Of a DNA stretch of 53,032 bases, positions 26,932 through 42,554 are shown in pieces. The stretch covers positions 1 through 53,032 of the forward strand of contig JAFMVE010000042.1 in assembly GCA_025499705.1 (NCBI GenBank), given 5' to 3'. The stretch's first letter is position 1. Every line of letters starts with the position of its first letter. The DNA comes from Carboxylicivirga caseinilyticus. Its GTDB lineage: Bacteria; Bacteroidota; Bacteroidia; Bacteroidales; Marinilabiliaceae. The notes under the pieces are model-generated. The model saw only the letters and a program-made list of their open reading frames with translations. It made no database searches and was not told the DNA's origin. Both the position numbers and the translations under genes were made by a program.

Positions 26932-26963
26932 TGCTGTTGGAATGAATCAACATTCCAACAGCA
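26932..26963 (+). other. Perfect 13-bp intercistronic hairpin before the GH66 gene
   Basis: TGCTGTTGGAATG at 26932-26944 and CATTCCAACAGCA at 26951-26963 pair perfectly around a 6-base loop, ending 20 bases before the GH66 start codon. No T-run follows. Likely roles are partial attenuation or 3'-end protection that sets the SusCDE to enzyme ratio. Confidence 0.7.
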
Positions 26964-26983: not shown

Positions 26984-28759
26984 ATGAGGGGATTAAAAAA
27001 TATATTGGTAATAACTTTAGTGTTATTGGTGGGGTGTAAAGACAATGAAAGTGTACAAGGTGGTAATGTCCCGGAGGTACCATCAAATCCTGAAATGCCA
27101 GCATATAGTAATGTTTTCATTTCAACAGATAAGGCAGCCTATGCCCCTGGAGATAAAGTTCTTTTTACAATAGAAGGTTCAAGTTTGCCGGCAGGAGCTA
27201 TGGTGCGATACAAACATTTAAATGATGTTATTAGGGAGGAAACTATTTCTGGTGTCAATTGGGAATGGAGTACCCCAACTAATGACTTCAAAGGTTATGT
27301 TGCTGAAGTGTTTAGTTTTGAGGGTGATCAAGAAACTATCCTTGCAACTATAGGCATTGATGTATCTTCTGACTGGACAAAGTTTCCTCGTTATGGTTTT
27401 CTATCTGATTATGGCATTAAAAGTGATGCAGAAATCCAAAGCGTTATAGATAACTTGCAGAGACATCATATAAACGGTCTACAGTTTTACGATTGGCATA
27501 ATAAGCATCACAAGCCATTGCCGATAGTTAATGGAAAGCCTGCTTCTCAATGGAAAGATATTATTAATAAGGATGTTTATTTATCAACAGTAGAGAGTTA
27601 CATTGATGCTGCCCATGCAGCTAATATGAAAGCCATGTTTTACAATCTTATTTTTGGAGCATGGGACGATGCAGAAGCAGATGGGGTTGGTAAAGAATGG
27701 TTTGTGTATAAAGACAACACCCATTCAAACAGAGATTTTCACCCTCTAGGAGCACCTTTTCTAAGCAATCTTTATCTTTTGGATCCTTCTAATCCTTTAT
27801 GGCAAGCATATATTGCTGTTGAAAATGATGTTGTATACCAGAACCTTGCTTTTGATGGGTATCATATGGATCAGCTTGGGGACAGGGGAGATACTTATAA
27901 ATATGATGGCTCAAGGTTATACTTGAACCAATCATATCAGTCTTTTATCGAGGCCATGAAACAAGCTGCACCAGAAAAAGATGTAGTTATGAATGCCGTG
28001 AGCCAGTATGGGCAGCAGAATATTGCCCAGGCGAGCCCTGATTTTTTATATACAGAAGTTTGGACATGGAGTTATAAGTCATACAATGATTTGGCCGGTA
28101 TAATTAAGCAAAACAATGTTTATTCAAATTATAAAAAGAATACTGTATTGGCAGCTTATATGAATTATGATTTGGCTGACAATAAAGGATATTTTAATAC
28201 TCCGGCAGTGTTAATGACTAATGCAGTAATTTTTGCTCACGGTGGTGCTCATCTCGAATTGGGAGAACATATGTTAGGAAAGGAGTATTTTCCAAACAGC
28301 AACCTGGCTATGAGGCCTGACTTAAAATCAGCAATGGTTGAGTACTATGATTTTCTCGTAGGATATGAAAATGTATTACGGGATGGTGGTGAATTTAATA
28401 CAGTTGACGTTACTTCTATAGATGGAAAGTTACCGGTTAGCAAGGTTGTTGGAACTACAGGTACCGTTAGTGTAATAGGAAGAGAATTTGAAGGATCACA
28501 GATAATTCATTTTATTAATTTTAAAGATGCTAACTCTTCTGAATGGCGAGATGATACAGGTAGTCAGTCAGTTCCTGGGCTTATTTCAGATGCAAAAGTT
28601 TCGGTAGCAGTGGAAAATACAGTTTCGAAAATATGGGTGGCTTCACCTGATATAATTGGGGGAGCTTCATGGGAATTAAATTTCAATCAAGGAAACGGAG
28701 TTGTGACTTTTACCTTACCCAGACTTAAATACTGGAGTATGGTGGTCATCGAGTATTAA
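26984..28759 (+). CDS. GH66 endo-dextranase, lipoprotein
   Basis: This 591-residue lipoprotein (lipobox VGC, Cys18) has an N-terminal beta-sandwich (about 40-125), a TIM-barrel core and a C-terminal beta-domain, the GH66 layout. The catalytic pair is visible: nucleophile D296 in GYHMDQLG and acid/base E358 in LYTEVW. FPRYGFLSDY and the QFYDWHNKHHKPLP segment at 167-180 are also typical. GH66 enzymes cut internal alpha-1,6 bonds of dextran, and some also make cyclo-isomaltooligosaccharides. The length fits a plain dextranase without a large insert. The lipobox suggests the cell surface. It is the main evidence that this locus targets dextran. Confidence 0.9.
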   Translation: MRGLKNILVITLVLLVGCKDNESVQGGNVPEVPSNPEMPAYSNVFISTDKAAYAPGDKVLFTIEGSSLPAGAMVRYKHLNDVIREETISGVNWEWSTPTNDFKGYVAEVFSFEGDQETILATIGIDVSSDWTKFPRYGFLSDYGIKSDAEIQSVIDNLQRHHINGLQFYDWHNKHHKPLPIVNGKPASQWKDIINKDVYLSTVESYIDAAHAANMKAMFYNLIFGAWDDAEADGVGKEWFVYKDNTHSNRDFHPLGAPFLSNLYLLDPSNPLWQAYIAVENDVVYQNLAFDGYHMDQLGDRGDTYKYDGSRLYLNQSYQSFIEAMKQAAPEKDVVMNAVSQYGQQNIAQASPDFLYTEVWTWSYKSYNDLAGIIKQNNVYSNYKKNTVLAAYMNYDLADNKGYFNTPAVLMTNAVIFAHGGAHLELGEHMLGKEYFPNSNLAMRPDLKSAMVEYYDFLVGYENVLRDGGEFNTVDVTSIDGKLPVSKVVGTTGTVSVIGREFEGSQIIHFINFKDANSSEWRDDTGSQSVPGLISDAKVSVAVENTVSKIWVASPDIIGGASWELNFNQGNGVVTFTLPRLKYWSMVVIEY

Positions 28760-28923
28760 TGATTGAAAAAGAATAGAGTACTAAATTAAAATCACTAACA
28801 GATATATCCAACATTATAAATAATTAATCATGTTAACCAACATTTATTATAGTGTTGAAAGCTATAATTGTTTCTATACGTTGTGTATTATGTTAACTAT
28901 AAATCGCTTTAAAATCTTCAATT

Positions 28924-29916
28924 ATGAAAAAGAGTGTACGTATAATTAGTTTCCTAATATTAGGATTAGTTTCAATTTCGAGCGCATTTGCACAATATGA
29001 TTATGTATCGATAGTAGGAGATGCTTGTTCTGTAGGGTATGATCCTGTGGGAATTCCGCTTGAGAAAAATGAGAATGTTTTCACATTTAATGGAGTATTA
29101 AAAGCTGGTAATTTTAAGTTTCATACATTTAATGGCGATTGGTGTGATGGTGATTGGATTAACTCATCGGTAGCAGACCAAGATTTAACCGGAACGACCT
29201 ATATTATTACGACCGGATGTGATGGACCAGATAATAAATGGAGTGTAACCACACCAGGAAGCTATTCAATTACAATTGATTTAGATGCTTCGACCATTCA
29301 AATTGAGGAGCTTACCTATTATGCTAATCTCTATTTAGTTGGGGATGCGACTCCCGGAAGTTGGGATTTGAACATGGCAAGCGAAATGACTGTTGATGGT
29401 TCAAATCCTGCACTTTTCACATGGTCAGGGGATTTGGTAGCAGGTAATTTTAAAATAGCCACAGCAAAAACCTTTGATGATGGATGGGATTGGATTATGC
29501 CATTAGCAACAGGTCAGGATTTTAGTTTGTCTGACTACCAGGTTGTTTTATCTGGGGGGGGTATAGATAATAGTTGGACTATAGATGCACTTACGGAAGG
29601 TAAATATGATATTTCTGTAGACCTTCAGGCCGAAACTATAAATATCAGTGAATCTACGGCTACAGGGATTTCAAATTCTGATTTGTCACAAGTTCAGGCA
29701 TTTCTCAATGAACTTTCTGGTCAGTTGAACATAGATTTAGGTATCCAAAAGATAGCCACAGTTTCTGTTTATTCGATCACAGGCCATATTATTTATCAAA
29801 CAGATATGACTGAATCTATTGTTTTGGATGCTTCATTATTAGGAGGTCCTGGACTTAAATTGGTACAAGTGTCTAATAATAATTTTAAAAAAGTTTTTAA
29901 AATTTTAGTTCAATAA
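28924..29916 (+). CDS. T9SS-tailed SusF-like binding protein A
   Basis: This 330-residue protein has a signal peptide ending AFAQ and no lipobox. Two SusF-like modules follow (about 24-133 and 134-245, the second opening LYLVGDATPGSWDL). The C-terminal T9SS-like tail (about 255-330) includes ATVSVYSITGHIIYQT and GLKLVQVSNNNFKK. Module two is very like that of protein B at 32717: both share KTF-x-DGW and MPLA and then an SG-x-G stretch, which indicates duplication. It precedes the first GH31 gene. It probably binds alpha-glucan at or outside the cell surface after T9SS export. It is not an enzyme by any visible motif. Confidence 0.72.
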   Translation: MKKSVRIISFLILGLVSISSAFAQYDYVSIVGDACSVGYDPVGIPLEKNENVFTFNGVLKAGNFKFHTFNGDWCDGDWINSSVADQDLTGTTYIITTGCDGPDNKWSVTTPGSYSITIDLDASTIQIEELTYYANLYLVGDATPGSWDLNMASEMTVDGSNPALFTWSGDLVAGNFKIATAKTFDDGWDWIMPLATGQDFSLSDYQVVLSGGGIDNSWTIDALTEGKYDISVDLQAETINISESTATGISNSDLSQVQAFLNELSGQLNIDLGIQKIATVSVYSITGHIIYQTDMTESIVLDASLLGGPGLKLVQVSNNNFKKVFKILVQ

Positions 29917-29927
29917 TTTATAAATAG

Positions 29928-29955
29928 AGATGATCAGAACTGGTTTTGGTCATCT
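29928..29955 (+). terminator. Intercistronic hairpin after SusF-like gene A
   Basis: AGATGATCAGAA at 29928-29939 pairs with TTTTGGTCATCT at 29944-29955, with two G-U wobbles and a 4-base loop. No T-run follows, so it is at best a weak terminator or a stability element. Confidence 0.45.
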
Positions 29956-30026
29956 TATAATTTAATGGATAGATTAAGGAAAAGTGTGATTAAAATCTTA
30001 ATGGCGTAGAAGTAGATTTAGAGGAA

Positions 30027-32519
30027 ATGGTTAAAATGAAAAAGATAATCTCCTGGGTTTTAGGAATCATCATTATTCCGTTTTCAATAACGGGCCAGAA
30101 TAAAATAAACACAGGTAATTGTTCAGGATATCAATTAAATGGAAATAGAGTTGTTTTTAATTGTGAAAACATAAATGTTCAATTGGAACAAATCAGTTCG
30201 GGTATTATCAAAATATGGTATGATACTGATGGATTTAAACGTAATAATGAATCATTTGCTGTCATTTTAAAAGGTAATGCAGAGGAGGATCTTAACCTGA
30301 CAGAACAATCCGGAAGCTTTGAGATATATACCAGTGAACTGATTGTTCGTATCACTAAAGCTCCATTTAAGATTCGAATTTACGATAAGTGGCAGAAATT
30401 ATTAATGGAAGATTATCAAGATTTTGGATTTGTATCAGATTCTGTAAAGATGAGTAGTTACAAAACATTAAAGCCCGGTGAACGAATTTATGGTTTGGGT
30501 GAACAAAATGGAAATATAAACCGCATTGGTAGTTCGTTTAAAATGTGGAATAGTGATAAGCCTTGTTATCAGGTTAATGAAGGTCCTCTTTATAAAAGTA
30601 TTCCATTTTTTATGAGTAGTGAGGGCTATGGTATTTACTTTGATAACACATTTAAGACTGAATATGATTTTGGAACAGAATCTGAATCTTATTATTCTTT
30701 TTCTGCACCGGGAGGTGAGATGATCTATTACTTTATTTTCGGACCTACATATAAACAAATTATCAGTAGATATACTGAGTTAACAGGTAAACCTATTATG
30801 CCTCCTGCATGGGGATTAGGGTTTGCTCAATGTCGTGGAATGCTAACCAATGAATCTTTAACAAGAGAAATTGCAAAAGGGTACAGAGATCGACAAATAC
30901 CTTGTGATATAATTTATCAGGATATTGGTTGGACCAATAATTTGCAGGATTTTGAATGGCGTGATGGTAATTATGATGATCCTCAAAAGATGCTGTCTGA
31001 TTTAGAATCTGAAGGTTTTAAAGTGATTGTTTCTCAGGATCCTGTGATTTCACAAACTAATAAGACACAATGGAGTGAAGCAGATTCCTTGGGTTATTTT
31101 ACCATTGATTCGAGAACCGGAGAAACTTATGACATGCCATGGCCTTGGGGAGGTAATTGTGGCGTTGTAGATTTTACTAATCCGGATGTTGCCGATTGGT
31201 GGGGTAATTACCAGCAAAAAGTATTGGATGATGGAGTACGTGGTTTTTGGACAGATATGGGAGAGCCGGCATGGAGTAATGAGGAGAGTATAGATCGTTT
31301 ATTTATGCAACACCATCGGGGAAGACATGCTGAAATACATAATGTATATGGTTTTACCTGGGATAAAGTAGTAACAGAACAATTTGAAAAGTACAACCCT
31401 AATACACGTATTTTCCAGATGACAAGGGCTGCTTTTGCTGGTATGCAACGTTACACCTTTGGCTGGTCTGGAGATTCAGGTAATGGCAATGATGTAACAC
31501 AAGGTTGGGAGCAATTAGAAGCCCAGATGCCTTTAATGATGTCAGCAGGTATGGGCTTGATACCTTTCTGGAGTTGTGATATTTCAGGTTATTGCGGCGA
31601 TATCAAGGATTACGATGAGTTAAGTGAGTTATATGTTCGCTGGATACAGTTTGGGGCATTTAATCCGCTTAGCCGAATTCATCACGAGGGCAATAATGCC
31701 GTGGAGCCATGGTTATTTGGCACAGAGGCGGAAGCCCTTTGTAAGGAAGCTATTGAGATGAAGTACCAGCTCTTTCCATATATCTATACCTATGCACGTG
31801 AAGCCTATGACACTGGGTTGCCTATAACAAGGGCGTTAATATTAGAATATCCTGATGATAAAGAAGCTTATGAGTTGAATAGCCAGTTTATGTTTGGGCA
31901 AGAGATGATTGTGGCACCTGTTGTTGAAGAAGGCGCTGCTTTTAAACGTGTTTATCTGCCTAAAGGCAAGTGGTTTGACTATAATAGTAAGCAAGATCCT
32001 TTTGAAGGAGGACAATGGATTGAATATCCTGTTAAATTGTCAACCATCCCTGTGTTTGTAAAACAAGGGTCTATCATTCCCCATATGCCGGTGATGCAAT
32101 ATATAAATGAAAGAGCCAACTATCCTTTGTTGGTTGATGTGGTGCCGGCGGGAATTAATAAAAAGGCCTCTTTTGAAGTATATGAAGATGATGGCGAAAC
32201 CAATAATTATAAAAAAGATGTTTTTGGCAAACGCAAGATAAGTTGTAAAACAACACGTGGTGCCTATGAATTATCCTATAAAGAAGAGGCGAGTGGCGAT
32301 TATGAGTTGAGGCCAAGGAATATTTGCTACAACTTTTTTCTTGAGGGTCAGCCTGCCATAATAAGCCTTGATGGGCAAAAAATAAAATCGGGCAAAATAC
32401 CTGAAAACCTTTTTGATACTATTAAAAAGCCTTTTTACAAGTGGGATGAAACGGCTAAAGTATTAAAAGTAGTTATTCCTGCAGGGCAGGAAACCTATAA
32501 AATTCAAATTGAAAACTAA
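30027..32519 (+). CDS. GH31 alpha-glucosidase/dextran-active enzyme 1
   Basis: This 830-residue protein has a signal peptide ending ITGQ. The ATG at 30036 is an alternative start, but GAGG lies just upstream of 30027. It has the GH31 order: N-terminal beta-sandwich (galactose-mutarotase-like, to about 250), TIM barrel with nucleophile D410 in GFWTDMGEPAW and acid/base D483 in GWSGDSG, then proximal and distal beta-domains with LPKGKWFDYNS near 650. The length fits family GH31. In dextran loci, GH31 enzymes release glucose from isomalto-oligosaccharides produced by GH66, probably in the periplasm. No lipobox or T9SS tail is seen. Bond specificity is inferred. Confidence 0.88.
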   Translation: MVKMKKIISWVLGIIIIPFSITGQNKINTGNCSGYQLNGNRVVFNCENINVQLEQISSGIIKIWYDTDGFKRNNESFAVILKGNAEEDLNLTEQSGSFEIYTSELIVRITKAPFKIRIYDKWQKLLMEDYQDFGFVSDSVKMSSYKTLKPGERIYGLGEQNGNINRIGSSFKMWNSDKPCYQVNEGPLYKSIPFFMSSEGYGIYFDNTFKTEYDFGTESESYYSFSAPGGEMIYYFIFGPTYKQIISRYTELTGKPIMPPAWGLGFAQCRGMLTNESLTREIAKGYRDRQIPCDIIYQDIGWTNNLQDFEWRDGNYDDPQKMLSDLESEGFKVIVSQDPVISQTNKTQWSEADSLGYFTIDSRTGETYDMPWPWGGNCGVVDFTNPDVADWWGNYQQKVLDDGVRGFWTDMGEPAWSNEESIDRLFMQHHRGRHAEIHNVYGFTWDKVVTEQFEKYNPNTRIFQMTRAAFAGMQRYTFGWSGDSGNGNDVTQGWEQLEAQMPLMMSAGMGLIPFWSCDISGYCGDIKDYDELSELYVRWIQFGAFNPLSRIHHEGNNAVEPWLFGTEAEALCKEAIEMKYQLFPYIYTYAREAYDTGLPITRALILEYPDDKEAYELNSQFMFGQEMIVAPVVEEGAAFKRVYLPKGKWFDYNSKQDPFEGGQWIEYPVKLSTIPVFVKQGSIIPHMPVMQYINERANYPLLVDVVPAGINKKASFEVYEDDGETNNYKKDVFGKRKISCKTTRGAYELSYKEEASGDYELRPRNICYNFFLEGQPAIISLDGQKIKSGKIPENLFDTIKKPFYKWDETAKVLKVVIPAGQETYKIQIEN

Positions 32520-32716
32520 ATTTTAGACTTAATGAACTAGTCCTATATCACATAAGCTTTTTGCCTCCACTTATTTGCCTCTTTTGAGGGGTACCTGAAT
32601 TCATTTCTCTAAAAAGGAGCCCCTGCGCAAGGCTACCTATAGGGAAACAAAGGGAGTGGGGAGGGGGAGTTAAGAAGTTGATTAGCTATGCACCAAATTC
32701 AAAAAAACTAATTATT

Positions 32717-33718
32717 ATGAAAAAACTATCTACACTAGTGCTATCATGTTTTATGCTTTGCTCTTTAAACCTAATGGGGCAATACACCAACCTTTATTTA
32801 GTTGGATCTGCAACACCCGCTGGTTGGGATGCTAGTGGTTATGCTATGGAACAAAGCAATTCGAACGGTAATTTATTTACCTACTCAGGGCCTTTAAAAG
32901 CTGGGGAGTTTAAGGTTCATACCGAGGCGTCTGGTGACTTTTGCGCCGGTAATTGGCTGATGCCCATTGATGAAACACAGAATACCGCTTTAACAACTTC
33001 AGCGCCGCTTTCTTACAGGGATGGGGCTGGCTGTTCTGCTGCTGACACTAAATGGGTAATTGAGGCTGATGGAATTTATACCATCACTGTTGATCAAACT
33101 TCTGGTACTGAATCTATCAGTTTAACAGTACTTTCTTCATATGCTCAACTTTATATGGTTGGCGATGCTACACCTAATGGATGGGATTTGAATAATGCCA
33201 CTTTGTTGTCAAAAGAATCCGAGGGGGTATACTCATGGTCAGGCGAGTTATTGTCAGGCGAATTTAAAATAACATCAGTAAAAACATTTAATGATGGCTG
33301 GGCATGGTATATGCCATTGGCACAAGGACAAAGCCTGGCGCTTACTAGTTGCCAGGAAGTGGTTTCGGGAAGCGGAACTGACTTAAAATGGGTGGTGGAT
33401 GCTGTTACTGCAGGCAACTATGATATTACAGTTAACTTATCAGCCCCTTCTGTTTCAATAGTGGAGTCAAATGCTACGGGCATAGAAAACTCAGGTATGG
33501 ATAAAGGAGGCATCTCCGTTGATTTAAAAGCAGGTACTGTTTCAGTAACCAATATCACCAGTGGTGTTTATACTATTTACAATATTTCAGGTAGCCAAGA
33601 ATTCAGTGGTAGCCTTGGTGGGAATTCAATTGATATTTCAGGGCTTAATAGTGGGCTGTATATTATTCAAGTTACTGGCAACGATGGTTTGCAGTTGGTT
33701 TCAAAATTTTTAAAGTAA
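32717..33718 (+). CDS. T9SS-tailed SusF-like binding protein B
   Basis: This protein is 333 residues from the ATG at 32717; an earlier in-frame ATG at 32678 would put a non-signal stretch in front. Signal peptide ends NLMGQ. Two SusF-like modules start LYLVGSATPAGWD and LYMVGDATPNGWDL, and the tail has SVTNITSGVYTIYNISGSQ and SGLYIIQVTGNDG, matching a type A T9SS sorting tail. The second module is a close paralogue of the one in protein A. It sits between the two GH31 genes and is probably a secreted glucan-binding partner. No catalytic residues are recognised. Confidence 0.72.
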   Translation: MKKLSTLVLSCFMLCSLNLMGQYTNLYLVGSATPAGWDASGYAMEQSNSNGNLFTYSGPLKAGEFKVHTEASGDFCAGNWLMPIDETQNTALTTSAPLSYRDGAGCSAADTKWVIEADGIYTITVDQTSGTESISLTVLSSYAQLYMVGDATPNGWDLNNATLLSKESEGVYSWSGELLSGEFKITSVKTFNDGWAWYMPLAQGQSLALTSCQEVVSGSGTDLKWVVDAVTAGNYDITVNLSAPSVSIVESNATGIENSGMDKGGISVDLKAGTVSVTNITSGVYTIYNISGSQEFSGSLGGNSIDISGLNSGLYIIQVTGNDGLQLVSKFLK

Positions 33719-33730
33719 GTAATGAAGCTC

Positions 33731-33757
33731 AATGCAAGGGTATTGCTCCCTTGCATT
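33731..33757 (+). terminator. Perfect 10-bp hairpin with GCAAGGG core (copy 1)
   Basis: AATGCAAGGG at 33731-33740 and CCCTTGCATT at 33748-33757 are perfectly complementary around a 7-base loop. A short T-rich stretch follows. It probably ends or attenuates transcription after SusF-like gene B. The hairpin at 37884 shares the same GCAAGGG core and loop length. Confidence 0.7.
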
Positions 33758-34006
33758 TCTACTAATTGCATGATGAGTGAATGGGGCTGTAATATAGGTT
33801 TTATTCGCAGGTGCATATTGCGCGTAAATTTATCAACTACCCATGAATATTATAGCTATTTGCCTGCCGGGCAAATGAGCCCAAAGGGCACATCTCAATA
33901 TGGTGTTTTACCATGATAGAGGGAAAAAATTAACAAGATTACAATAAGAAACAGTTCGTTGTAGGTTTTATAATGACTGTAAATAGGGATGATAATTTAA
34001 TTACTT

Positions 34007-34031
34007 CCTAATCCCCAATATGGGGCTTAGG
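34007..34031 (+). other. Hairpin in the leader of GH31 gene 2
   Basis: CCTAATCCCC at 34007-34016 pairs with GGGGCTTAGG at 34022-34031, with one internal mismatch and a 5-base loop, ending 17 bases before the ATG at 34049. It could lower translation initiation or protect a processed 5' end. Confidence 0.55.
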
Positions 34032-34048
34032 GCAACAAATATTTAAAA

Positions 34049-36322
34049 ATGAGAAAACTACTTACAGCTGCTTTTTGCCTTGTTTTAGTTATAAATGCGG
34101 TAATAGCACAAACGAACAATCCAGTAGCGAATTCAGAGGCTATTGTTACTTCTGGTACGATGCGGTTTACAGTATTAACACCAGAAATGATACGTATTGA
34201 GCAAAGCGATTCTCTGGAATTTGAAGACCGGGCATCGTTTGTCGTCGTAAACCGTAATTTACCAGTGCCTAATTATAGTACAAGGACTGAAGACGGGTGC
34301 TTGTATATTTTAACAGATAAGCTGGAGCTCAGGTATAATATAGGTTCGGACCCTATGGAGAATGATCCTTGTGCTCCAAATTTGCAAATTACCTTTGATG
34401 TAGATGGGGCATCAGAAACATGGTTTCCTACAAAAGTGGACCCATACAACCTGAAAGGGACTTGCCGTACTTTAGATGGCGTTAAAGGTGATGGTCGTAA
34501 GAGGCTTGAGGATGGGCTTATTTCGCGCTCTGGCTGGGCCGTAATTGATGAGCAAAAAGCACGGAATGATGGTAGTTTTAGCCTAATGTTTGATGGAAGT
34601 GATACTGTCGATTGGGTGGCTCAACGAGTTGACCCTAATTCGATGGATATGTACTTTATGGGCTATGGGCATGATTATAAAAAGGCACTTTACGATTTTA
34701 CACTTATAGCAGGTAAAATACCATTGCCTCCGCAATATGTTTTTGGTTATTGGTATTCAAAATATCAGCGTTATTCAGAGCAAGATTTTAGGGACATTGT
34801 AGGTGATATTCAAAGCAATGATATCCCAATGGATGTACTGGTCGTTGATATGGATTGGCATATGGATGGTTACAACAACCGCACCGATCAAACTCAATGG
34901 ACCGGCTGGACCTGGAATAATGAATTATTTCCCGATCCTCAGGGCTTCATTGATTGGATACATAGCCAAAACCTGAAAACAACACTTAATCTTCACCCTG
35001 CTGATGGGATTGGTATTTATGAGGATAATTTTACACAGCTAGCGAGTGATTTGGGTGTTTCTGCCAGTGAAACAATACCTTGGAATATTGAGAATAAAGA
35101 CTTTTATAAAGCATTTTTTAAGAATATTTTGCGCCCGCATGAAAACATGGGGGTTGACTTTTGGTGGCTGGACTGGCAACAATGGATGCTTGCCCCCAAT
35201 GAACCTAAACTTGGGAATACCTTTTGGTTGAACCATGTTTTCTTCAATGATATGAAATTTCAAGGAAATGATAGGCCATTGATATTTCACCGTTGGGGAG
35301 GATTAGGCAACCATCGATATCAAATAGGTTTTTCTGGTGATGCCTATAGTACATTCCCAACCTTAGCATTTCAACCTTATTTCACCTCTACTGCCAGTAA
35401 CGTGTGTTATGGATACTGGAGCCATGATATTGGTGGGCATGTGCAACCTGATGATAATAACCCTGAACTATACTTGCGATGGATTCAATACGGGGTGTTT
35501 TCTCCAATTTTACGAACACATTCGACCAATGCCGATAATATTGAACGACGCATATGGATGTATGATAACTTCCTGGCAATGCGCGATGCCATTGAGCTTC
35601 GTTATGCTTTAATACCATATATCTACACCTATGCACGATATGCCTATGATACTGGTGTTTCACTTTGCAGGCCTATGTATTATGACTATCCAGAAGCAGA
35701 AGAGGCCTATACTTTTGAAGGGGAATACATGTTTGGCAATGACATTCTTGCGGCTCCTATTTGTAAATCAAATAATGGCGAGCCAACAGTTGATCAAACC
35801 ATCTGGTTGCCTGAAGGGAAGTGGTTTGAAGTAGCTACAGGCGAGCTGTTAGAAGGAAATCAAGTTGTTACACGTGCATTTACAGCGGAACAGATTCCAT
35901 ATTATTATCGTGAAGGTGCGGTTATACCGCTTTATCCTGCAATAAGGCATTTAAATGACAGGCCTGATACAATTATTGTACAATTTGCCCCGGGGGTAAC
36001 AGGCGAATGTTCATTATACGAAGACGAGAATAACAATAATAACTATGAGACAGGAAGCTTTACCAATACGCTTATAACACAAGCTACAGTAGAGGGCATT
36101 AGTACATATACTGTAAATGCACGAACCGGTTCATTTACTGGAATGCCTGATACACGTTCGTTCCAATTTGAAATGCTAGATAAGAATGAACCCGCAAGTG
36201 TAAAGGTAAATGGTAATTCTGCAGCGTACACCTACGATCAGGATAATCGAAAAATTATTATAAATGTTGATGATGTGTCATATAGTTCATTGCCATTAAG
36301 CATTGTTGTGGCCAATAACTAA
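34049..36322 (+). CDS. GH31 alpha-glucosidase-family enzyme 2
   Basis: This 757-residue protein has a signal peptide ending VIAQ. It has the GH31 layout, but its catalytic motif differs from enzyme 1: nucleophile D375 lies in FWWLDWQQW and the acid/base is D431 in GFSGDAYSTF. YWYSKYQRYSEQDF and VDMDWH mark the barrel, and the distal domain ends LPLSIVVANN without a T9SS tail or lipobox. The LDWQQ type of GH31 differs in specificity from the TDMGEP type, so the two enzymes probably handle different bonds, such as branch alpha-1,3 or alpha-1,2 glucosyl units of dextran against the main alpha-1,6 chain. That division is inference. Confidence 0.85.
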   Translation: MRKLLTAAFCLVLVINAVIAQTNNPVANSEAIVTSGTMRFTVLTPEMIRIEQSDSLEFEDRASFVVVNRNLPVPNYSTRTEDGCLYILTDKLELRYNIGSDPMENDPCAPNLQITFDVDGASETWFPTKVDPYNLKGTCRTLDGVKGDGRKRLEDGLISRSGWAVIDEQKARNDGSFSLMFDGSDTVDWVAQRVDPNSMDMYFMGYGHDYKKALYDFTLIAGKIPLPPQYVFGYWYSKYQRYSEQDFRDIVGDIQSNDIPMDVLVVDMDWHMDGYNNRTDQTQWTGWTWNNELFPDPQGFIDWIHSQNLKTTLNLHPADGIGIYEDNFTQLASDLGVSASETIPWNIENKDFYKAFFKNILRPHENMGVDFWWLDWQQWMLAPNEPKLGNTFWLNHVFFNDMKFQGNDRPLIFHRWGGLGNHRYQIGFSGDAYSTFPTLAFQPYFTSTASNVCYGYWSHDIGGHVQPDDNNPELYLRWIQYGVFSPILRTHSTNADNIERRIWMYDNFLAMRDAIELRYALIPYIYTYARYAYDTGVSLCRPMYYDYPEAEEAYTFEGEYMFGNDILAAPICKSNNGEPTVDQTIWLPEGKWFEVATGELLEGNQVVTRAFTAEQIPYYYREGAVIPLYPAIRHLNDRPDTIIVQFAPGVTGECSLYEDENNNNNYETGSFTNTLITQATVEGISTYTVNARTGSFTGMPDTRSFQFEMLDKNEPASVKVNGNSAAYTYDQDNRKIIINVDDVSYSSLPLSIVVANN

Positions 36323-36355
36323 TTAAGCAGAAGTGAATTTTAAAACAATCCATGA

Positions 36356-36385
36356 GCAACTTGGCGCAATTAGCAGCCAAGTTGC
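36356..36385 (+). terminator. Perfect 10-bp hairpin after GH31 gene 2
   Basis: GCAACTTGGC at 36356-36365 and GCCAAGTTGC at 36376-36385 pair perfectly around a 10-base loop. No immediate T-run is present. It is another of the intercistronic stems of this locus. Confidence 0.6.
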
Positions 36386-36438
36386 AAATGGTAATTTTCC
36401 CTCCAGAATAAGGGGTAAATGAAATAAAATTTAAACAG

Positions 36439-37779
36439 ATGAAGCGAATTATATTATTTCTATTGGCGATTTATGCATTTTCAACCTTGCAGGCTAAGGA
36501 TTGGGCTATTATTGGAGATGCATTAGAAAATGATACCACCTATTTAGGCCAGGATCCATCAAATTCCAATGTGTATAAATATGTGGGAGAAATTACAACA
36601 GGTGAATTTAAACTTTGGGATGGGACAGATAACTATATTCCTGTTTGCGGCATGAATGACCCAATGGGGCAGGAAATAGGTATGGAAGCCCAGGCAATTG
36701 AAGGGCAAACCAGTTTTGGACTTAAGTATGTTAAGGATGCCCAGATGTATGTTATTACTCTAGTTGATGGAGCCAGCCCTACCATAAAAGTTGAATTGGC
36801 TGATGTATTTGAGCATGTGTATCTAATTGGAGGGCCTGTAAGTACCACAGGCAGCAATTGGCAACTTAGTGATGCAAGGGAATTAAAGCGTGATGCTGAT
36901 AACCAGTTTATCTTTTATTACCGTGGTTTTTTAATCTATAATAATTCAGGAGATGAGCCGGGTGCTTTTAAATTTCTTTCATCAAATAGTAACTGGGAAA
37001 CTTCATTTCATCCGGTTGGCCCTGCTAACGTACTTTTAAGCCAAGCTTCAACAATGCGCGTTAATGGAGATGATACCAAGTGGGAATTGCCGGCTGATGG
37101 AAGTGAAAACGGGTATTATACCATTAAGCTTAATACGCTTGAACAAACCATTGAAGTATTAGAGTTCACTCCATCAAATGTTGCATATCCTGAGAAAGTA
37201 TATCTTACTGGCGATGCAATGCCATGTGGCTGGGTGAATGATAATCCTGAAGTAATGATAACTACTAATATTATAGAAGGAAAATACATGTGGAGTGGAA
37301 ACGTTGTTCCCGGACAATTCAAATTTTTAAAAGTGAAAAATTATTGGGGAAGTTGTTATGTGTCAACAATTGAAGATCAGTTAATTGAGAATGGGGGATC
37401 ATATACTGTCATATACGAAGGTTGGGGTGAAACATCTGTGAACGATTTTAAGTTTGTATTCTCCGAATCAAAAGAATGTACTATTTCTTTGGATTTATCT
37501 ACTATGAGTTTAGAGGTTAGAGAAGGGATTGTGAATAGTATAGTTAATGTTGACAATCAAGAAGAAAAATATTTCATTACAGGATTAAATGGAATTTTAA
37601 AAGCGGGTAGTCATGATCCAACACCTATGGAACTTTCAGTATACGATTTACTTGGGCACGAGATATATAAGAATAATTTTGTGTCCAAAACCCAAGTTAC
37701 AGTCAGTAAAGGCTTCTACATTGTAGTTCTAAGCGACCAGAAAAATCAAGTTTGTAAAACAGTTAAGTATGTTTACTAG
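36439..37779 (+). CDS. T9SS-tailed SusF-like binding protein C (three modules)
   Basis: This 446-residue protein has a short signal peptide ending LQAK. Three beta-modules follow, near 20-125, 126-250 and 250-365; the latter two open VYLIGGPVS and VYLTGDAMPCGWV. A T9SS-like tail (about 375-446) includes MELSVYDLLGHEIYKNN and KGFYIVVLSDQKN. The modules are more diverged than those of proteins A and B. It lies directly ahead of the GH27-like gene, continuing the pattern of a binding protein before each enzyme. The role as a secreted alpha-glucan-binding accessory is inferred from module type and context. Confidence 0.7.
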   Translation: MKRIILFLLAIYAFSTLQAKDWAIIGDALENDTTYLGQDPSNSNVYKYVGEITTGEFKLWDGTDNYIPVCGMNDPMGQEIGMEAQAIEGQTSFGLKYVKDAQMYVITLVDGASPTIKVELADVFEHVYLIGGPVSTTGSNWQLSDARELKRDADNQFIFYYRGFLIYNNSGDEPGAFKFLSSNSNWETSFHPVGPANVLLSQASTMRVNGDDTKWELPADGSENGYYTIKLNTLEQTIEVLEFTPSNVAYPEKVYLTGDAMPCGWVNDNPEVMITTNIIEGKYMWSGNVVPGQFKFLKVKNYWGSCYVSTIEDQLIENGGSYTVIYEGWGETSVNDFKFVFSESKECTISLDLSTMSLEVREGIVNSIVNVDNQEEKYFITGLNGILKAGSHDPTPMELSVYDLLGHEIYKNNFVSKTQVTVSKGFYIVVLSDQKNQVCKTVKYVY

Positions 37780-37883
37780 GATTTACTGGACTTCATAATC
37801 AAAATCCAAAAAAATGTATAGGTATTGGTTCAGAATATGTGAAATGAGAATTGTATTTGGAGCTATTTTTATTATAAAATTCA

Positions 37884-37910
37884 AAAGCAAGGGAGTAATA
37901 CCCTTGCTTT
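37884..37910 (+). terminator. Perfect 10-bp hairpin with GCAAGGG core (copy 2)
   Basis: AAAGCAAGGG at 37884-37893 and CCCTTGCTTT at 37901-37910 pair perfectly around a 7-base loop, ending 15 bases before the GH27-like start codon. The core and loop length match the hairpin at 33731. Its closeness to the next ATG suggests attenuation or processing rather than simple termination. Confidence 0.68.
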
Positions 37911-37925
37911 AAGAAAAATATTTTT

Positions 37926-39878
37926 ATGAAAAGAAGTAAAGTTTTAGGGTTACTCTTAGGTGTGATTATTGGGATTAATACATATTCACAAAGGCAAAAA
38001 GCTCCTATGTATATTAGCGCCTATGCATATTTGTATATTGAAAATAATAACCAGAATACAACTATTCCAATGCCTGAGAATATGTGGCAAAACAATATTG
38101 ATTATATGTCGGAAAATCTTGCGCCACTTGGTTTTGATATGATTTGTACTGATGGCTGGGGTGAAGATATAAGAAATAGTGATGGTTTTAGGATAAAGCA
38201 TCATTCAAGTTGGGAAAATGAATTCTCAAATTGGGCTAATTATGCAGAACAAAAAGGCGTTAAATTGGGCTTGTATGAGAATCCTCTTTGGATTAATGAA
38301 TATATAAGTGCAACATCAGGCCTTTACAATCCCAATGAGAATGCCATGTGGTTTAACTGGCTGCAGGTAGGTAATGTAGGTGCAGAGGATTATTTAAAAA
38401 GGTATATTGAGTATTATGCATCCTTTGGCGTTGATTTCCTCAGGGTTGATTTTTTATCATGGTACGAAGATGGAATAGACAAATTAGAATCTTTAACGGC
38501 AGAGCATGGAAGGGATGCGGCAGATTATCAAACAGCACTTTCATGGCTAAACAAGTATTGTGATGCCAATGATATTCAATTGAGCTTGGTGATGCCTCAT
38601 TTATATAATGATGGGGCTAATGAAAGGGCATATGCGCCAGGAAGTATGATAAGGGTGAATGAAGATGCCTGTGATGGTGGTTGGTACAGGTTTAGCGAGA
38701 TTGAAAGAGGGGAGGTACACCCTATCTGGAGCAAGTATCACAATGCCTTTGATGGCTTGGTGTATTGGTCTCGTTTTTCTGGTTTTGATGATTCGCAAAA
38801 ACAAATGATTCTGGATGGTGATTTTATATGGTTATCTTCTTTTGATAATGATGAGGAGAAGAAGTCTGTACTATCATTAAACCTTATGGCTGGTGGTGCT
38901 ATTGCTCTTACTGAGTATGATATAAATGATTTTCAGAAAAGTATTCATCTACTTCAAAATCGTGAAATATTTGAACTAAATAATGATGGTTTTGTGGGAA
39001 AACCATTGTCCAATGATCCAACTAATATACAAAGTCAGGTTTGGCATGGGCGGATGTCTGATGGTGATTATGTACTTGCCCTTTTTAACAGAGAAAATAC
39101 TGCACAGGCCAGAAGTTTTAGTTTTTCATCGCTTGAAGGGAACCCTGCAAGTTTATATACCCGCGACTTATGGGAACGTGAAAACATAGGCTTAAAATCT
39201 TCTATAAACATTAGTTTGGCAGCCCATGCCTGCAAAGTTTATAGGTTGAGTACTGAAGAAAGTGAGTTGGGTAACCTTGGCTCAATAGAACCTGTGCAAA
39301 TGATTCAGAATAGCCAAATGTATATTGGTGGAAGTTTTAATAGTTGGACTCCAGGTACACTTCAGATGGAAGATGTTGATGGAGTTTGGACGGTCTCTGG
39401 ACTTTCATTGGAAGCAGGTAATTATGAAATGAAATTTGTAAATACTTCAGATTGGAGTGGTGATGATTGGGGTAATTCTACTGGCTTGTCTGGTTCAGTA
39501 ACGCTTTCAACAGGCGGTTTGCCTAACCTTTCTTTCTCACTTTCAGAATCCGGTTTGTATGATATTTACTTCAATGATATGCAAATGGAATATAATATTA
39601 TACCACAAAAGGCTACTTCATTATGGAAGAATCAAATTAAACAAATAAAACTAAGCCCGAACCCGGCAACTGAAATTTTAAATATTAGTGGAGTAGAAGG
39701 AATTATAAAAGTTTCAATTTATAGTTTACAAGGAAAGAAAGTCTTAGAAAAAAGTGGATTTGCAGAAGCGGGTTCTTTTTGTTTGAATATTTCGGATGTG
39801 CTTACTGGAGCCTATGTTGCTATAGTAAATGATGAGCAGCAGAATTTTTATTGTGATAAAGTAGTGATTGTAGAATAG
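37926..39878 (+). CDS. GH27-like enzyme with SusF-type module and T9SS tail (candidate isomalto-dextranase)
   Basis: This 650-residue protein has a signal peptide ending TYSQ. The barrel (about 28-330) has clan GH-D features: CTDGWGED, nucleophile candidate D175 in FLRVDFLSW, and R243 with D247 (R-x3-D, as in alpha-galactosidase A) in RVNEDACDGGW. An anti-parallel beta-domain follows. A SusF-like module then opens MYIGGSFNSWTPG (about 467-565), and the end is a T9SS tail (KLSPNPATEILNISG, SIYSLQGKKVLEKSG). GH27 contains alpha-galactosidases and also isomalto-dextranase. The setting among GH66 and GH31 dextran enzymes favours the latter. An alpha-galactosidase or another clan GH-D activity remains possible. 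Confidence 0.68.
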   Translation: MKRSKVLGLLLGVIIGINTYSQRQKAPMYISAYAYLYIENNNQNTTIPMPENMWQNNIDYMSENLAPLGFDMICTDGWGEDIRNSDGFRIKHHSSWENEFSNWANYAEQKGVKLGLYENPLWINEYISATSGLYNPNENAMWFNWLQVGNVGAEDYLKRYIEYYASFGVDFLRVDFLSWYEDGIDKLESLTAEHGRDAADYQTALSWLNKYCDANDIQLSLVMPHLYNDGANERAYAPGSMIRVNEDACDGGWYRFSEIERGEVHPIWSKYHNAFDGLVYWSRFSGFDDSQKQMILDGDFIWLSSFDNDEEKKSVLSLNLMAGGAIALTEYDINDFQKSIHLLQNREIFELNNDGFVGKPLSNDPTNIQSQVWHGRMSDGDYVLALFNRENTAQARSFSFSSLEGNPASLYTRDLWERENIGLKSSINISLAAHACKVYRLSTEESELGNLGSIEPVQMIQNSQMYIGGSFNSWTPGTLQMEDVDGVWTVSGLSLEAGNYEMKFVNTSDWSGDDWGNSTGLSGSVTLSTGGLPNLSFSLSESGLYDIYFNDMQMEYNIIPQKATSLWKNQIKQIKLSPNPATEILNISGVEGIIKVSIYSLQGKKVLEKSGFAEAGSFCLNISDVLTGAYVAIVNDEQQNFYCDKVVIVE

Positions 39879-39905: not shown

Positions 39906-42554
39906 ATGAAGAGGTTAATAGTGTTGATTTGTGTGGGTATCGCAGTTTGGGGTTGTCAAAATAATCAAAATATACTTTACGAGAACAGTAAGTTTTCTGT
40001 TTTGAATGATGGAGTGATTCAGGGTAATTACAGAGCAACTGTTATTTCTCCAGTTCATATTAGTTCCAACTATCAAAGTTTGGTTCATGAAGATTATTCT
40101 AGGTTAATAACTTTTAAATTCAGTATTAATGAAAAGGATAATGAAAAAGAAAGTGGTACTGATCATTGGATAATAGTTGGCGATGAACATGAATCACCTG
40201 TTATAAAATTTGGTGGTACTAATACTCCAGTACCTGCTGATCCAGGGACAAAATTACCACCAAATTACGAATATACTTTCAAACTAGATATGAGGGAAGT
40301 ATTCAGTCAGTTTGAAGAGAAAGGGTATTATGAAGTATATGATGGCAGCCGTGTGGCTAAAGACGATTTCAAGGCAGTTTATCTTGCTGGGGGCGCTGCT
40401 CCTTTATCCTGGGATTTCTCAAATCTTGATGAAAATGGCTTGGCTTTAAAGGATGATGATGGAGATGGTATATATGAATTACAAGTTATTCTAAATCCTT
40501 TTGATGAAAATAGTTTACAAGAAAAAACATGGGAAGCTAGTATTGATGTTTCTGATAAAACTGTTTATCATTCAGAACAGCCAATTGTAGATGCTCTTTT
40601 TAATATGTCATTGGAAGAGGCTAAGTTAAATATAGAAGCCGATAGTACTTTACGGACAGGTGCTAAATGGGGTGGTGTATGGACTAGGGATGTAAATTAC
40701 AGTACACTTTTGGCTTTTGCTTACCATGAGCCTGAAGTGGCAAAAAACAGCCTTCGTAAAAAGGTGAAAAGAGGCCGTATTATCCAGGACACGGGCTCGG
40801 GTGGAGCATGGCCTGTATCTTCCGACCGAACTACATGGGCATTGGGTGCTTGGGAAATTTTTAAGGTAACAGGAGATCGGGAGTGGCTAAAAGAGGCATA
40901 TGCTGTTATTAAGAGTTCCCTTGATGATGATTACATGACATTGCGAAATTCAGAAACAGGCATGTATTGTGGAGAGTCTTCGTTTTTAGATTGGCGTGAG
41001 CAAACCTATCCCAAATGGATGGAGAATATGGATATCTATGTTTCGGAGAACCTGGGCACCAATGCAGTGCATTATAGGGCGCATAAGATATTGGTTGAGA
41101 TGGCCAAGTTGTTGGAAGAGCCATATGAGGTTTATGAACAGAGGGCTGAAGCAATTAAAGCAGGCGTGAACAAGTACCTTTGGATGCAGGATAAAGGTTA
41201 CTATGGGCAATATTTATACGGCCGTTCATCACAAGTGTTGTCGCCTCGATTCGAAGCTTTGGGAGAAGCACTGGCTATCTTATTTGATGTGGCTGACGAG
41301 CGACAGGCTAAATCAATTATCTCTAAATCCCCGGTTACAGCATATGGTACAACTTGCATTTATCCTCAAATACCTGGTATTCCACCATACCATAACAATG
41401 GCATATGGCCTTTCGTGCAGTCGTATTGGAATTTAGCAGCCGCAAAAGTTGGTAATGAAGAGGCTTTGTTACATGGCTTGGCATCTATTTATAGGGCAGG
41501 TGGTTTATTTCTGACCAACTACGAAAACTTTGTGGCTGAAAACGGCGATTATGTAGGCACCGAAATTAATTCACACCGCATGTTGTGGAGTATGGCTGGT
41601 AACCTGGCTATGGTTCATCGTGTATTTATTGGGATGGATTTTGCTGTTGATGGCGTTTACTTTAATCCGGTGATTCCTAAAGTATATGGGGGAGTGAGAA
41701 CCTTATCTAATTTTAAATACAGAGATGCAATCTTAAATATTAAGGTTGAAGGTTATGGAAATAAGATAGAATCTTTCATGCTGGATAATGAAAAGCGAGC
41801 TTTGGCATTTATACCATCAACATTAAAAGGAGAACATTCTATTGTTATTAAAATGGCCAATAATCCATTTGAGAAAGCCGGGACTCATCTGGTTGAAAAT
41901 CGTTTTTCTACCTCAAATCCACATGTAAAGCTAAGTGAAACGTCGATTAATTGGGAACCAGTTGAAGGTGCCGAAAAATACAATGTGTATAAAAATGGCG
42001 AGTTGTTAAAAACTGGTGACTTTTTGAGTATGCAAATTGCTGTCGATCATTTTGCTGAATATGCAGTAACTGCCATCAATGGTTATGGTGATGAATCATT
42101 TAGTAGTGAGCCCGTTAAAGTGATACCTGTTGAAACCATTCTTGAAATAGAACAGTTTTATCCAAAATCATCCTTGCCTTATACCAATTATACGGGTCAG
42201 GGTTTTATTAAAATCAGTACTAATGAAAATGTTGATCTTAATTTAAAGGTTAGTGTTGAGGAGGATGGCGAATATATCATTGATTGTCGTTATGCGAATG
42301 GAACAGGCCCCTGGAACACTGATAATAATTGTTGTATCCGAAGCCTTTACGTAAATAATGATTACGAAGGAGTGTTGGTAATGCCTCAAAGAGGAAAAGG
42401 TGAGTGGTCAGATTGGGGATATTCAAATGCAGTTAAAGTACATTTATTAAAGGGTAATATCAACTTGAAAATTGTACTTGAAGTATGGAATACTAATATG
42501 GATGAAGAAATAAATGAAGCTTTAATAGATTTCATAAGAATAATTAAGGTATGA
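39906..42554 (+). CDS. (Alpha/alpha)6-barrel glycosidase lipoprotein with CBM35/CBM6-like C-terminus
   Basis: This 882-residue lipoprotein (lipobox WGC, Cys17) starts with a beta-rich region (to about 190) holding a degraded SusF-like stretch (VYLAGGAAPLSWDF). A six-hairpin helical barrel (about 215-600) contains WGGVWTRDVNYS, GGAWPVSSDRTTWALGAWEI, SSFLDWREQ and NNGIWPFVQSYW. It resembles the MGH1-like/GH63-like and glucodextranase-type (alpha/alpha)6 enzymes. A fibronectin-III-like segment (about 650-710) and a CBM35/CBM6-like end (about 745-882) follow. It probably attacks glucan ends at the cell surface, but I cannot assign a GH family by eye. It closes the dextran operon, followed by a terminator at 42589. 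Confidence 0.65.
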   Translation: MKRLIVLICVGIAVWGCQNNQNILYENSKFSVLNDGVIQGNYRATVISPVHISSNYQSLVHEDYSRLITFKFSINEKDNEKESGTDHWIIVGDEHESPVIKFGGTNTPVPADPGTKLPPNYEYTFKLDMREVFSQFEEKGYYEVYDGSRVAKDDFKAVYLAGGAAPLSWDFSNLDENGLALKDDDGDGIYELQVILNPFDENSLQEKTWEASIDVSDKTVYHSEQPIVDALFNMSLEEAKLNIEADSTLRTGAKWGGVWTRDVNYSTLLAFAYHEPEVAKNSLRKKVKRGRIIQDTGSGGAWPVSSDRTTWALGAWEIFKVTGDREWLKEAYAVIKSSLDDDYMTLRNSETGMYCGESSFLDWREQTYPKWMENMDIYVSENLGTNAVHYRAHKILVEMAKLLEEPYEVYEQRAEAIKAGVNKYLWMQDKGYYGQYLYGRSSQVLSPRFEALGEALAILFDVADERQAKSIISKSPVTAYGTTCIYPQIPGIPPYHNNGIWPFVQSYWNLAAAKVGNEEALLHGLASIYRAGGLFLTNYENFVAENGDYVGTEINSHRMLWSMAGNLAMVHRVFIGMDFAVDGVYFNPVIPKVYGGVRTLSNFKYRDAILNIKVEGYGNKIESFMLDNEKRALAFIPSTLKGEHSIVIKMANNPFEKAGTHLVENRFSTSNPHVKLSETSINWEPVEGAEKYNVYKNGELLKTGDFLSMQIAVDHFAEYAVTAINGYGDESFSSEPVKVIPVETILEIEQFYPKSSLPYTNYTGQGFIKISTNENVDLNLKVSVEEDGEYIIDCRYANGTGPWNTDNNCCIRSLYVNNDYEGVLVMPQRGKGEWSDWGYSNAVKVHLLKGNINLKIVLEVWNTNMDEEINEALIDFIRIIKV

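Follow-up and report, generated by a model that had tools for sequence, protein, structure and literature searches.

Predicted type IX-exported SusF-type binding proteins in an extended dextran utilisation locus of Carboxylicivirga caseinilyticus

What do three additional SusF-type genes contribute to a dextran locus that already has a SusE lipoprotein, and does each of them belong with the enzyme gene that follows it? The question arises from the 53,032-nucleotide stretch of DNA analysed here (the window), in which the genes run SusE-GH66-SusF A-GH31a-SusF B-GH31b-SusF C-GH27. This order, with SusE before GH66 and one SusF before each of the two GH31 genes and GH27, had been proposed in an earlier note and was borne out, together with the positions, by our check of the open reading frames. 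Our best reading, to which we assign a probability of roughly two in three, is a Bacteroidota dextran utilisation locus of canonical make-up (SusC, the SusD, SusE and GH66 lipoproteins, and GH31a) that has been extended with non-lipidated binding proteins exported through the type IX secretion system (T9SS), an exported GH27 and an acquired GH31b-SusF C cassette.

All genes described here lie on the forward strand. The core starts with a SusC-like TonB-dependent transporter (20842..23868), which has 48-71% homologues in the dextran loci of relatives, a SusD-like lipoprotein (23869..25365; PF07980, 145 bits) and a SusE-like lipoprotein (25386..26921; lipobox ..MLISC-EDN) with an N-terminal SusE Ig domain (PF14292, 66.4 bits) and three SusF_SusE modules (PF16411, 112.1 bits). 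The GH66 endo-dextranase lipoprotein of the BT3087 type (26984..28759; lipobox ..LLVGC-KDNE) passes the NCBIfam equivalog EndoDexBT3087 (NF052487) with 831 bits against a cut-off of 730, and GH31a (30027..32519), with a type I-looking signal peptide, is a dextranase of the FjDex31A type (6jr6, 1154 bits). Downstream of GH27 is an 882-aa lipoprotein (39906..42554), a predicted (alpha/alpha)6-type glycosidase (Bac_rhamnosid6H, 41.9 bits) whose top PDB match reaches only E 0.0045 and which has relatives at 15 of the 26 loci collected from related genomes. The same order of SusC, SusD, SusE/F, GH66 and GH31 dextranase is described for FjDexUL of Flavobacterium johnsoniae (PMC10316084). FjDexUL differs in having GH97 and GH65 among its eight genes and a single SusE/F with a type II signal peptide, and the eight-gene list of that paper includes no further SusF, GH27 or GH31b; FjDusE is reported there to bind dextran in gels. 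In the dextran utilisome of B. thetaiotaomicron, the surface glycan-binding protein BT3088 (SGBPdex; PDB 9sje, 9sji) is among the lipoproteins found together with SusCD (PMC7618045). The Sus-type binding protein is described as a lipoprotein in both dextran systems compared (PMC7618045, PMC10316084).

SusF A (28924..29916) and SusF B (32717..33718, taken from the ATG at 32717; the ORF list has an upstream TTG at 32678) each consist of a signal peptide, two SusF modules and a T9SS tail, and SusF C (36439..37779) has three SusF-type modules between signal peptide and tail. All three exceed the PF16411 SusF_SusE cut-off of 27.5 bits (70.1, 76.3 and 40.4 bits for A, B and C), and the top PDB sequence match of each is BT3088 (E 1.1e-22 for SusF A and 2.5e-26 for SusF B), whose locus shares GH66 with ours. 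BT3088 is a lipoprotein (PMC7618045), whereas the three SusF proteins carry the tail and lack both a canonical lipobox and the SusE Ig domain (no PF14292 match at E up to 1), and the nearer architectural counterpart of BT3088 in the window is SusE. Signal peptides and lipoboxes were assessed by eye; no canonical lipobox was seen in SusF A, SusF C or GH27, and the cysteines in the leader of SusF B (LVLSCFMLC) follow a stretch that seems too short for a lipoprotein signal, which agrees with the earlier description of signal peptides without lipoboxes. In the whole genome, PF16411 matches are confined to this locus and one other, C80, where neither of the two PF16411 proteins has a match in the genome-wide tail search. 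In the window, SusF-type modules are predicted to take the type IX route as well, beside the lipoprotein version. Since both versions share one locus, two anchoring strategies would become comparable on one substrate. T9SS-exported carbohydrate-active enzymes are known from F. johnsoniae ChiA, whose gene lies inside a PUL (PMC5127042), and from Ca. Paraporphyromonas polyenzymogenes (PMC5831590); the tail is described there on catalytic proteins, whereas in the window it is also found on stand-alone SusF-type binders. BACON-domain PUL proteins with a Por_Secre_tail (PMC11216935) likewise place spacer or binding-type modules before a T9SS tail, but their modules are BACON rather than SusF_SusE, and that paper does not describe them as part of a dextran locus.

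It could be argued that SusF A, B and C are a redundant expansion, that is, SusE/F modules that arose by duplication or transfer, raise avidity alone and have no role beyond that of the SusE of the utilisome. The patchy distribution of such genes fits this idea: extra SusF are found at 6/26 relative loci and in five of the nine dextran loci of the family, and are not seen at the other 20/26 (the 26 include several contig fragments) and 4/9; the 41% identity of SusF A to SusF B fits as well. We nevertheless regard it as unlikely, considering that A-type SusF are kept in other genera (best identity 45% in L106 and 64% in L107), that 14 or 15 of the 16 SusF A/B-type domains share a Trp at each of three columns, and that SusF C forms a lineage of its own with GH31b. 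Several genes of L107 are frame-broken. As the extra SusF recur in other dextran loci, a point the earlier survey question had left to be settled, the arrangement is not that of a single strain. The search of the phylum with A1 undercounts because five candidates were scored per genome. The Trp at column 69 sets SusF A/B-type domains, 15/16 of which have it, apart from the nine SusF C domains and the eight GH31b-fused domains, none of which does, but it is no marker of dextran binding, since SusE, the presumed dextran binder, has it in just 7/20 domains.

The earlier note had proposed that each GH31 or GH27 enzyme is preceded by its own SusF and that the two form dedicated units, possibly acting away from the SusCD complex or secreted as partners. 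We consider such secreted or surface enzyme-binder units, each SusF being the dedicated partner of the next-encoded enzyme, quite improbable. The strict alternation of SusF and enzyme genes in the window speaks for them; however, three SusF and four GH genes in random order alternate strictly with probability 1/35, so that the alternation alone is weak evidence. Also on their side are the fusions of GH31 with SusF modules in L113, L114 and L116 and the GH27 protein (37926..39878), which has a tail of its own (TIGR04183, 30.5 bits; Pfam, 38.9 bits) and a SusF-like module. The tail had been claimed before and stands, while the module is weak: at about residues 463-562, it scores 16.1 bits for SusF_SusE and 16.6 bits for AMPK1_CBM, a CBM48-like match, both below cut-off. 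The catalytic domain of GH27 is isomaltodextranase-like (5awo, 272 bits; two aligned stretches, residues 24-125 and 143-443). Against dedicated pairs is the survey of neighbours, which covered 12 extra SusF in ten GH31a-type loci (A, B and C of the window; L001, L009, L011, L016, L017, L024, L106, L107 and L108). The gene on the 3' side is GH31a three times, GH27 three times, and GH31b, the 882-aa lipoprotein enzyme and GH66 once each, with no co-oriented gene in three cases, and a fixed pairing with the next enzyme was rejected. Furthermore, neither GH31a nor GH31b has a tail match at E up to 1 with TIGR04183 or Pfam, and FjDex31A, a close relative of GH31a, was judged likely periplasmic (PMC10316084). 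Both GH31 enzymes are thus probably periplasmic, going by their sequences, which makes surface complexes with exported SusF unlikely, barring export that is invisible in the sequence.

The one constant partnership points upstream. In each of the three loci with a SusF C gene, GH31b lies upstream of it (L108 is not counted as independent). In three other genomes (L113, L114, L116), four genes encode GH31b homologues fused, in the same order, to a pair of modules whose best match is SusF C: against the fused parts SusF C scores 52-67 bits, SusF A 41-49, SusE 40-46 and SusF B 30-36, and SusF B, the lowest of these, was ruled out as the fusion partner. The domain tree places SusF C in its own lineage with the GH31b-fused modules, the D1 grouping being on long branches flagged by the program and the D2 domains not being resolved. 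A palindrome with the core GCAAGGG-N7-CCCTTGC occurs at only two places in the whole genome and brackets GH31b-SusF C, one copy directly 3' of SusF B (33731..33757) and the other, with inverted loop, 5' of GH27 (37884..37910); L108 has a similar palindrome separating SusF C from GH27, and none was found in L001. Synteny, fusions and palindrome together indicate that the unit is GH31b-SusF C, rather than SusF B-GH31b or SusF C-GH27. GH31b (34049..36322) is missing from all 13 other genomes of the genus. It has a type I-looking signal peptide and is predicted to be alpha-1,3-glucosidase-like, matching LlGH31_u1 (7wj9) with 451 bits and keeping both catalytic Asp, nucleophile and acid/base, as named in PMC9061262. 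The L. lactis gene adjoins ABC-transporter genes according to that paper, whereas GH31b sits in a Sus-type locus. From these comparisons SusF C appears to be the binding part of the upstream GH31b, encoded as a separate protein.

The fused and split forms provide a natural experiment on joining and separating enzymes and binding modules. GH31b is without a tail in all three split loci, and L113B is the only fused gene out of four above the TIGR04183 cut-off (34.0 bits), L114 being just below (20.9 bits). SusF C could, in principle, bind GH31b in the periplasm and ferry the tailless enzyme through the T9SS translocon by non-covalent hitchhiking, and the other SusF proteins might do likewise for GH31a. 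This would account for the coexistence of fused and split forms among species, and these forms allow a direct test of whether T9SS moves a tailless partner, but we hold it to be very improbable.

The predicted export of the SusF proteins rests on their tails. TIGR04183, the NCBIfam T9SS tail model (cut-off 23 bits), is passed by SusF A (24.3 bits), SusF B (32.0 bits), SusF C (24.0 bits) and GH27, SusF A and C by about 1 bit, whereas the Pfam tail model (cut-off 27) is passed by GH27 only, with SusF B at 22.2, SusF C at 16.9 and SusF A at 11.7 bits. The earlier assignment of T9SS tails accordingly holds for all four proteins by the first model and for GH27 alone by the second. With a limit of E 0.001, the 5.65 Mb genome has 99 tail matches, of which 97 exceed the cut-off, and the four tails within 12.9 kb compare with 0.23 expected (Poisson P 9e-5). 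The genome also encodes SprA (2633 bits) and three PorV-family proteins above cut-off. Tail counts were taken from TIGR04183 where it was run, because a custom tail HMM missed SusF B of the window and the SusF of L016 and L024. The SusF A structure model (mean pLDDT 82.7) has SusF 4fe9 as its top fold match (E 6e-6). Further matches are the mirolase CTD and the translocon-bound T9SS substrates 8gl8_D, 8glk_D and 8gl6_D (E 0.004-0.009, TMt 0.77-0.79, prob 1.00); the T9SS tails are outranked by the DUF3244 proteins 4g5a and 3sd2, a prob of 1.00 is also attained by designed Ig-like proteins, and the assignment to the tail rests on length because the fold output gives no aligned range. For SusF C (mean pLDDT 46.8, poor outside the tail), T9SS CTDs are likewise among the matches, with DUF3244 and Ig-like proteins scoring alike. 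The predicted folds are therefore consistent with a T9SS tail but not exclusive to it. In relatives, SusF tails reach 36.4 (L009), 42.5 (L016), 33.3 (L024) and 26.7 bits (L106) with TIGR04183; of the SusF C orthologues, L001 is below cut-off (19.7 bits) and L108 has no match. That the tails are no export signals and SusF A-C are periplasmic glucan binders beside the GH31 enzymes would suit the borderline TIGR04183 and sub-threshold Pfam scores of SusF A and C, the non-exclusive fold search and the probable periplasmic location of the GH31 neighbours, but the TIGR04183 scores of SusF B and of the four relatives leave this reading little chance.

Returning to the extended dextran locus, we suggest that a second, non-lipidated surface layer, exported via the type IX system, would be added to the lipoprotein layer. 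SusF A and B would be BT3088-like module pairs placed on a T9SS tail in place of the SusE Ig domain and lipid anchor; they would exit through SprA, be either surface-attached or shed, and keep dextran close to the cell. GH66 would cleave within the chains at the surface and the tailed GH27 would probably release isomaltose from chain ends outside, after which SusCD would import the products and GH31a and GH31b would complete the breakdown in the periplasm. GH31b-SusF C would be a separately acquired cassette, a single polypeptide in other species, in which SusF C is the split binding part with an export tail of its own. SusF C probably recognises a linkage pattern other than that of SusF A and B, perhaps alpha-1,3-branched glucan.

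A scan for promoters and terminators gave no signals in excess of shuffled sequence. Hairpins specific to the binding-protein genes were considered and rejected, as one follows GH31b and no perfect one follows SusF A: the gap 3' of SusF A has no perfect 10-bp stem, only a weaker structure (z -2.5, equalled by 4/200 shuffles). Whole-gap z values are -0.88 after SusF B and -1.31 after SusF C, and no stems of at least 9 bp were found around SusF in L009, L024 and L106. A 13-bp perfect hairpin lies 3' of SusE (26932..26963; gap z -7.45) and another hairpin between GH31b and SusF C (36356..36385; gap z -5.09), the latter being present in L108 as well.

The dextran utilisation locus spans about 19.0-42.6 kb of the window, with every gene on the + strand in the order DUF6377 protein, SusC, SusD, SusE, GH66, SusF A, GH31a, SusF B, GH31b, SusF C, GH27 and an 882-aa lipoprotein enzyme. 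By its match to the NCBIfam profile (831 bits, cut-off 730) the GH66 is an endo-dextranase of the BT3087 type; GH31a has the close relative FjDex31A (6jr6, 1154 bits) and GH27 resembles isomaltodextranase (5awo, 272 bits). GH31b is of the GH31_u1 type, with 451 bits to LlGH31_u1 (7wj9), which PMC9061262 describes as the most nigerose-specific among characterised GH31 enzymes; the two catalytic aspartates are kept in the alignment to 7wj9, whose chain numbering runs 20 ahead of that in the paper. Both GH31 enzymes lack a tail, and their signal peptides look like type I. With a threshold of E 1e-100, none of the 13 other genomes in the genus has GH31b and 12 of them lack GH66, which makes the locus an accessory one.

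SusF A and SusF B, the first two of the SusF-like binding proteins beyond SusE, hold two SusF-type modules each and SusF C holds three. The SusE Ig domain was not found in any of them by Pfam search, and the top PDB sequence match of all three is BT3088, the dextran-binding protein of B. thetaiotaomicron. As for the T9SS tails assigned to them in the earlier note, TIGR04183 (cut-off 23) recognises a C-terminal T9SS signal in all three, A and C only just over, and Pfam's own tail cut-off (27) is missed by each. For SusF A as modelled by AlphaFold (mean pLDDT 82.7), the best PDB fold match is SusF 4fe9 (E 6e-6). The model also matches the translocon-held T9SS substrates 8gl8_D, 8glk_D and 8gl6_D (E 0.004-0.009, probability 1.00) and the mirolase CTD, at low overall TM-scores, with the DUF3244 proteins 4g5a and 3sd2 outranking the substrates and designed Ig-like proteins likewise at probability 1.00. 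The search output gives no aligned model range, and it is from the alignment length of about 77 columns that we take the substrate matches to concern the tail. For SusF C the model is poor (mean pLDDT 46.8), its confident part being the tail region (residues 381-440, block means 73 to 87); its matches again include 8gl8_D and 8gl6_D, and none is as good as E 0.001. Besides SprA, the genome encodes three PorV-family members above cut-off, and it has 99 T9SS tail matches with E of 0.001 or better, of which 97 pass the cut-off. Searches of the open-licence PMC literature listed no paper describing T9SS-tailed SusF proteins; published work mentions Por_Secre_tail on BACON-domain proteins (PMC11216935) and T9SS enzymes within PULs or gene clusters as already known (PMC5127042; PMC5831590).

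The extra SusF proteins are not unique to one strain. A GH31a scan of one-per-species genomes gave 26 loci, several being contig fragments or stopping at GH31a, and SusF beyond SusE occurs in 6 of them (L001 from Mangrovibacterium marinum, L009, L011, L016, L017 and L024). These were counted as five independent cases because the GH31b of L016 and L017 are near-identical. Within the window's family, BT3087-type GH66 (E up to 1e-100) was found in 9 of 71 genomes; extra SusF is present in five of these loci (G000, the window's own genome, with three, and, by presumed matches, G417 = L108, G433 = L024, G432 = L106 and G415 = L107) and absent from the other four (L003, L023, L125, L123). The tail is over cut-off in G000, G433 and G432. 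When TIGR04183 was run on seven stand-alone relatives, a set that leaves out L017 and the frame-broken L107, four were over cut-off (L009, L016, L024, L106), two were below it (L001 19.7, L011 21.0) and the L108 protein gave no match. Three such SusF proteins together were found in the window only, among the loci examined.

In the phylum sample, BT3087-type GH66 is present in 14 of 395 genomes, our own included. Five of the other 13 loci have SusCD-SusE with no extra SusF, four have neither SusCD-SusE nor a tailed GH66, and four (L166-L169) carry a tailed GH66 (12 to 34 bits, custom tail HMM) with no SusCD in the stretch examined. The stand-alone tailed protein adjoining the GH66 of L169 has one weak SusF-type module. 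These four genomes are distant, and a second tailed protein adjoins the tailed GH66 in L167, L168 and L169.

On the other hand, the proposal that each GH31/GH27 enzyme is preceded by its own SusF does not agree with a count over 10 GH31a-type loci. After the 12 extra SusF proteins found there, the next gene differs: GH31a (3), GH27 (3), GH31b, the 882-aa enzyme or GH66 (1 each), and no co-oriented gene (3). The gene before is GH66 (4), GH31b (3), GH31a (2), GH97 (2; tested in L016 and extended to L017 by equal length) or SusE (1). Since the neighbours vary, SusF A is considered to go with the dextran core and not with a single enzyme. Three loci lacking GH31a were left out of this count: L169, L112, where a 224-aa tailed SusF-type protein lies outside any dextran locus, and L115, where GH27 and an 882-aa-type enzyme flank a tailed four-module protein of 589 aa.

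GH31b and SusF C form a closer association. GH31b directly precedes SusF C in the window, L108 and L001, the last without GH27. In two genes of L113 and one each of L114 and L147, a GH31b homologue (58-63% identical) is joined in one protein with a pair of SusF-type modules. By TIGR04183 the tail scores 34.0 bits in L113B and 20.9, below cut-off, in L114; L113A has no Pfam tail match and 3.9 bits by the custom tail HMM. In L147 an insert interrupts the fusion gene, whose downstream piece has the second module and a tail (22 bits, custom tail HMM); the interrupted gene lies at about 5.9-11.8 kb, and the insert contains two opposite-strand ORFs of 245 and 533 aa. Against the fused parts SusF C scores highest (66.5, 54.5 and 52.2 bits; SusF A reaches 40.9-49.2, SusE 39.5-46.2 and SusF B 30.0-36.0), and it aligns collinearly over the first and second modules (D1-D2). 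In the domain tree, fused D1 and SusF C D1 make up one starred side of a branch (97/98), in a tree with long branches (program warning), few columns, an unsettled bootstrap and no supported D2 grouping. The enzyme tree places split and fused GH31b in two clades within a starred group of nine that includes L016 and L017, and because both lie inside one group no age order is assigned to the two forms. A tryptophan at column 69 is present in 15 of 16 SusF A/B-type domains, in none of nine SusF C domains and in none of eight fused modules. Its absence hints at another ligand for SusF C and the fused modules, and it proves no ligand because only 7 of 20 SusE domains carry it. In L116, a different GH31 with 28% identity to GH31a carries four fused modules, which SusF A matches best among nine queries (241 bits), and a tail that scores 38.8 bits in Pfam (cut-off 27). 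Fusion with SusF modules plus a T9SS tail thus occurs in at least two different GH31 types. The L116 enzyme (8107-12216) is 1369 aa long, and three more tailed proteins follow it.

Traces of a cassette surround GH31b-SusF C. The 5.65-Mb genome has exactly two copies of a palindrome with the core GCAAGGG-N(5-9)-CCCTTGC, at 33734-33754 (3' of SusF B) and 37887-37907 (5' of GH27), one on either side of the pair. Among 170 loci it was seen only in L108, between SusF C and GH27, and in L126, the window's own copy; it was not found in L001, though that locus has GH31b-SusF C. Window positions 33881-37385 are common to L108 at 97.4% DNA identity (98.5-100% in 14 of 17 200-base steps), whereas the flanking homologues are far more diverged (GH27 83%, GH31a 70%), and the block stops within susF C. 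This pattern of identity makes a recent transfer likely. A chimera of the metagenome assembly is possible, and for this reason the L108 GH31b was not counted as independent. Directly before the block, L108 (reverse strand) 10315-10438 is identical over 124 bases to window 20754-20877, the susC leader and first codons, by possible promoter capture or assembly chimera.

We propose that GH66 and SusE would work at SusCD, by analogy with the dextran utilisome described in PMC7618045, while T9SS-exported SusF A and B are predicted to add dextran capture outside the lipoprotein layer and exported GH27 to free isomaltose extracellularly. GH31a and GH31b are most likely periplasmic because of their type I-looking signal peptides and missing tails; FjDex31A was judged likely periplasmic in PMC10316084. 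SusF C would retain its tie to GH31b by descent or function. Physical enzyme-binder units, as the earlier note suggested, would require export of GH31b as well, of which its sequence gives no sign.

Nine perfect stems of at least 10 bp (loop 3-12) occur in the window, seven of them intergenic, compared with a random expectation of 0.05 on average (first-order Markov versions of intergenic stretches over 40 bases, 20 trials). Four lie in operon gaps, 3' of SusE, SusF B, GH31b and SusF C. By whole-gap folding energy, the gaps after SusE (z -7.45) and GH31b (-5.09) are exceptional and the one after SusF A is moderate (-2.50), whereas those after SusF B (-0.88), SusF C (-1.31), GH66 (-0.55) and GH31a (0.15) are unexceptional. 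The hairpins may cause the genes of the operon to be expressed at different levels.

Relatives of the 882-aa lipoprotein enzyme (39906-42554) were observed in 15 of the 26 GH31a loci. Its family matches are weak (Bac_rhamnosid6H 41.9 bits; best PDB E 0.0045), and it may belong to a family of glycosidases in dextran loci that is as yet unclassified. Upstream, in a fructan locus, a 231-aa protein (13308-14003) between two GH32 genes combines a signal peptide and a front part of no assigned family with a T9SS tail that scores 35.3 bits in Pfam against a cut-off of 27. It may represent the same approach applied to a different sugar. Other intergenic perfect hairpins, with stems of 14-16 bp, are located at 14089-14127, 51447-51482 and 52904-52935.
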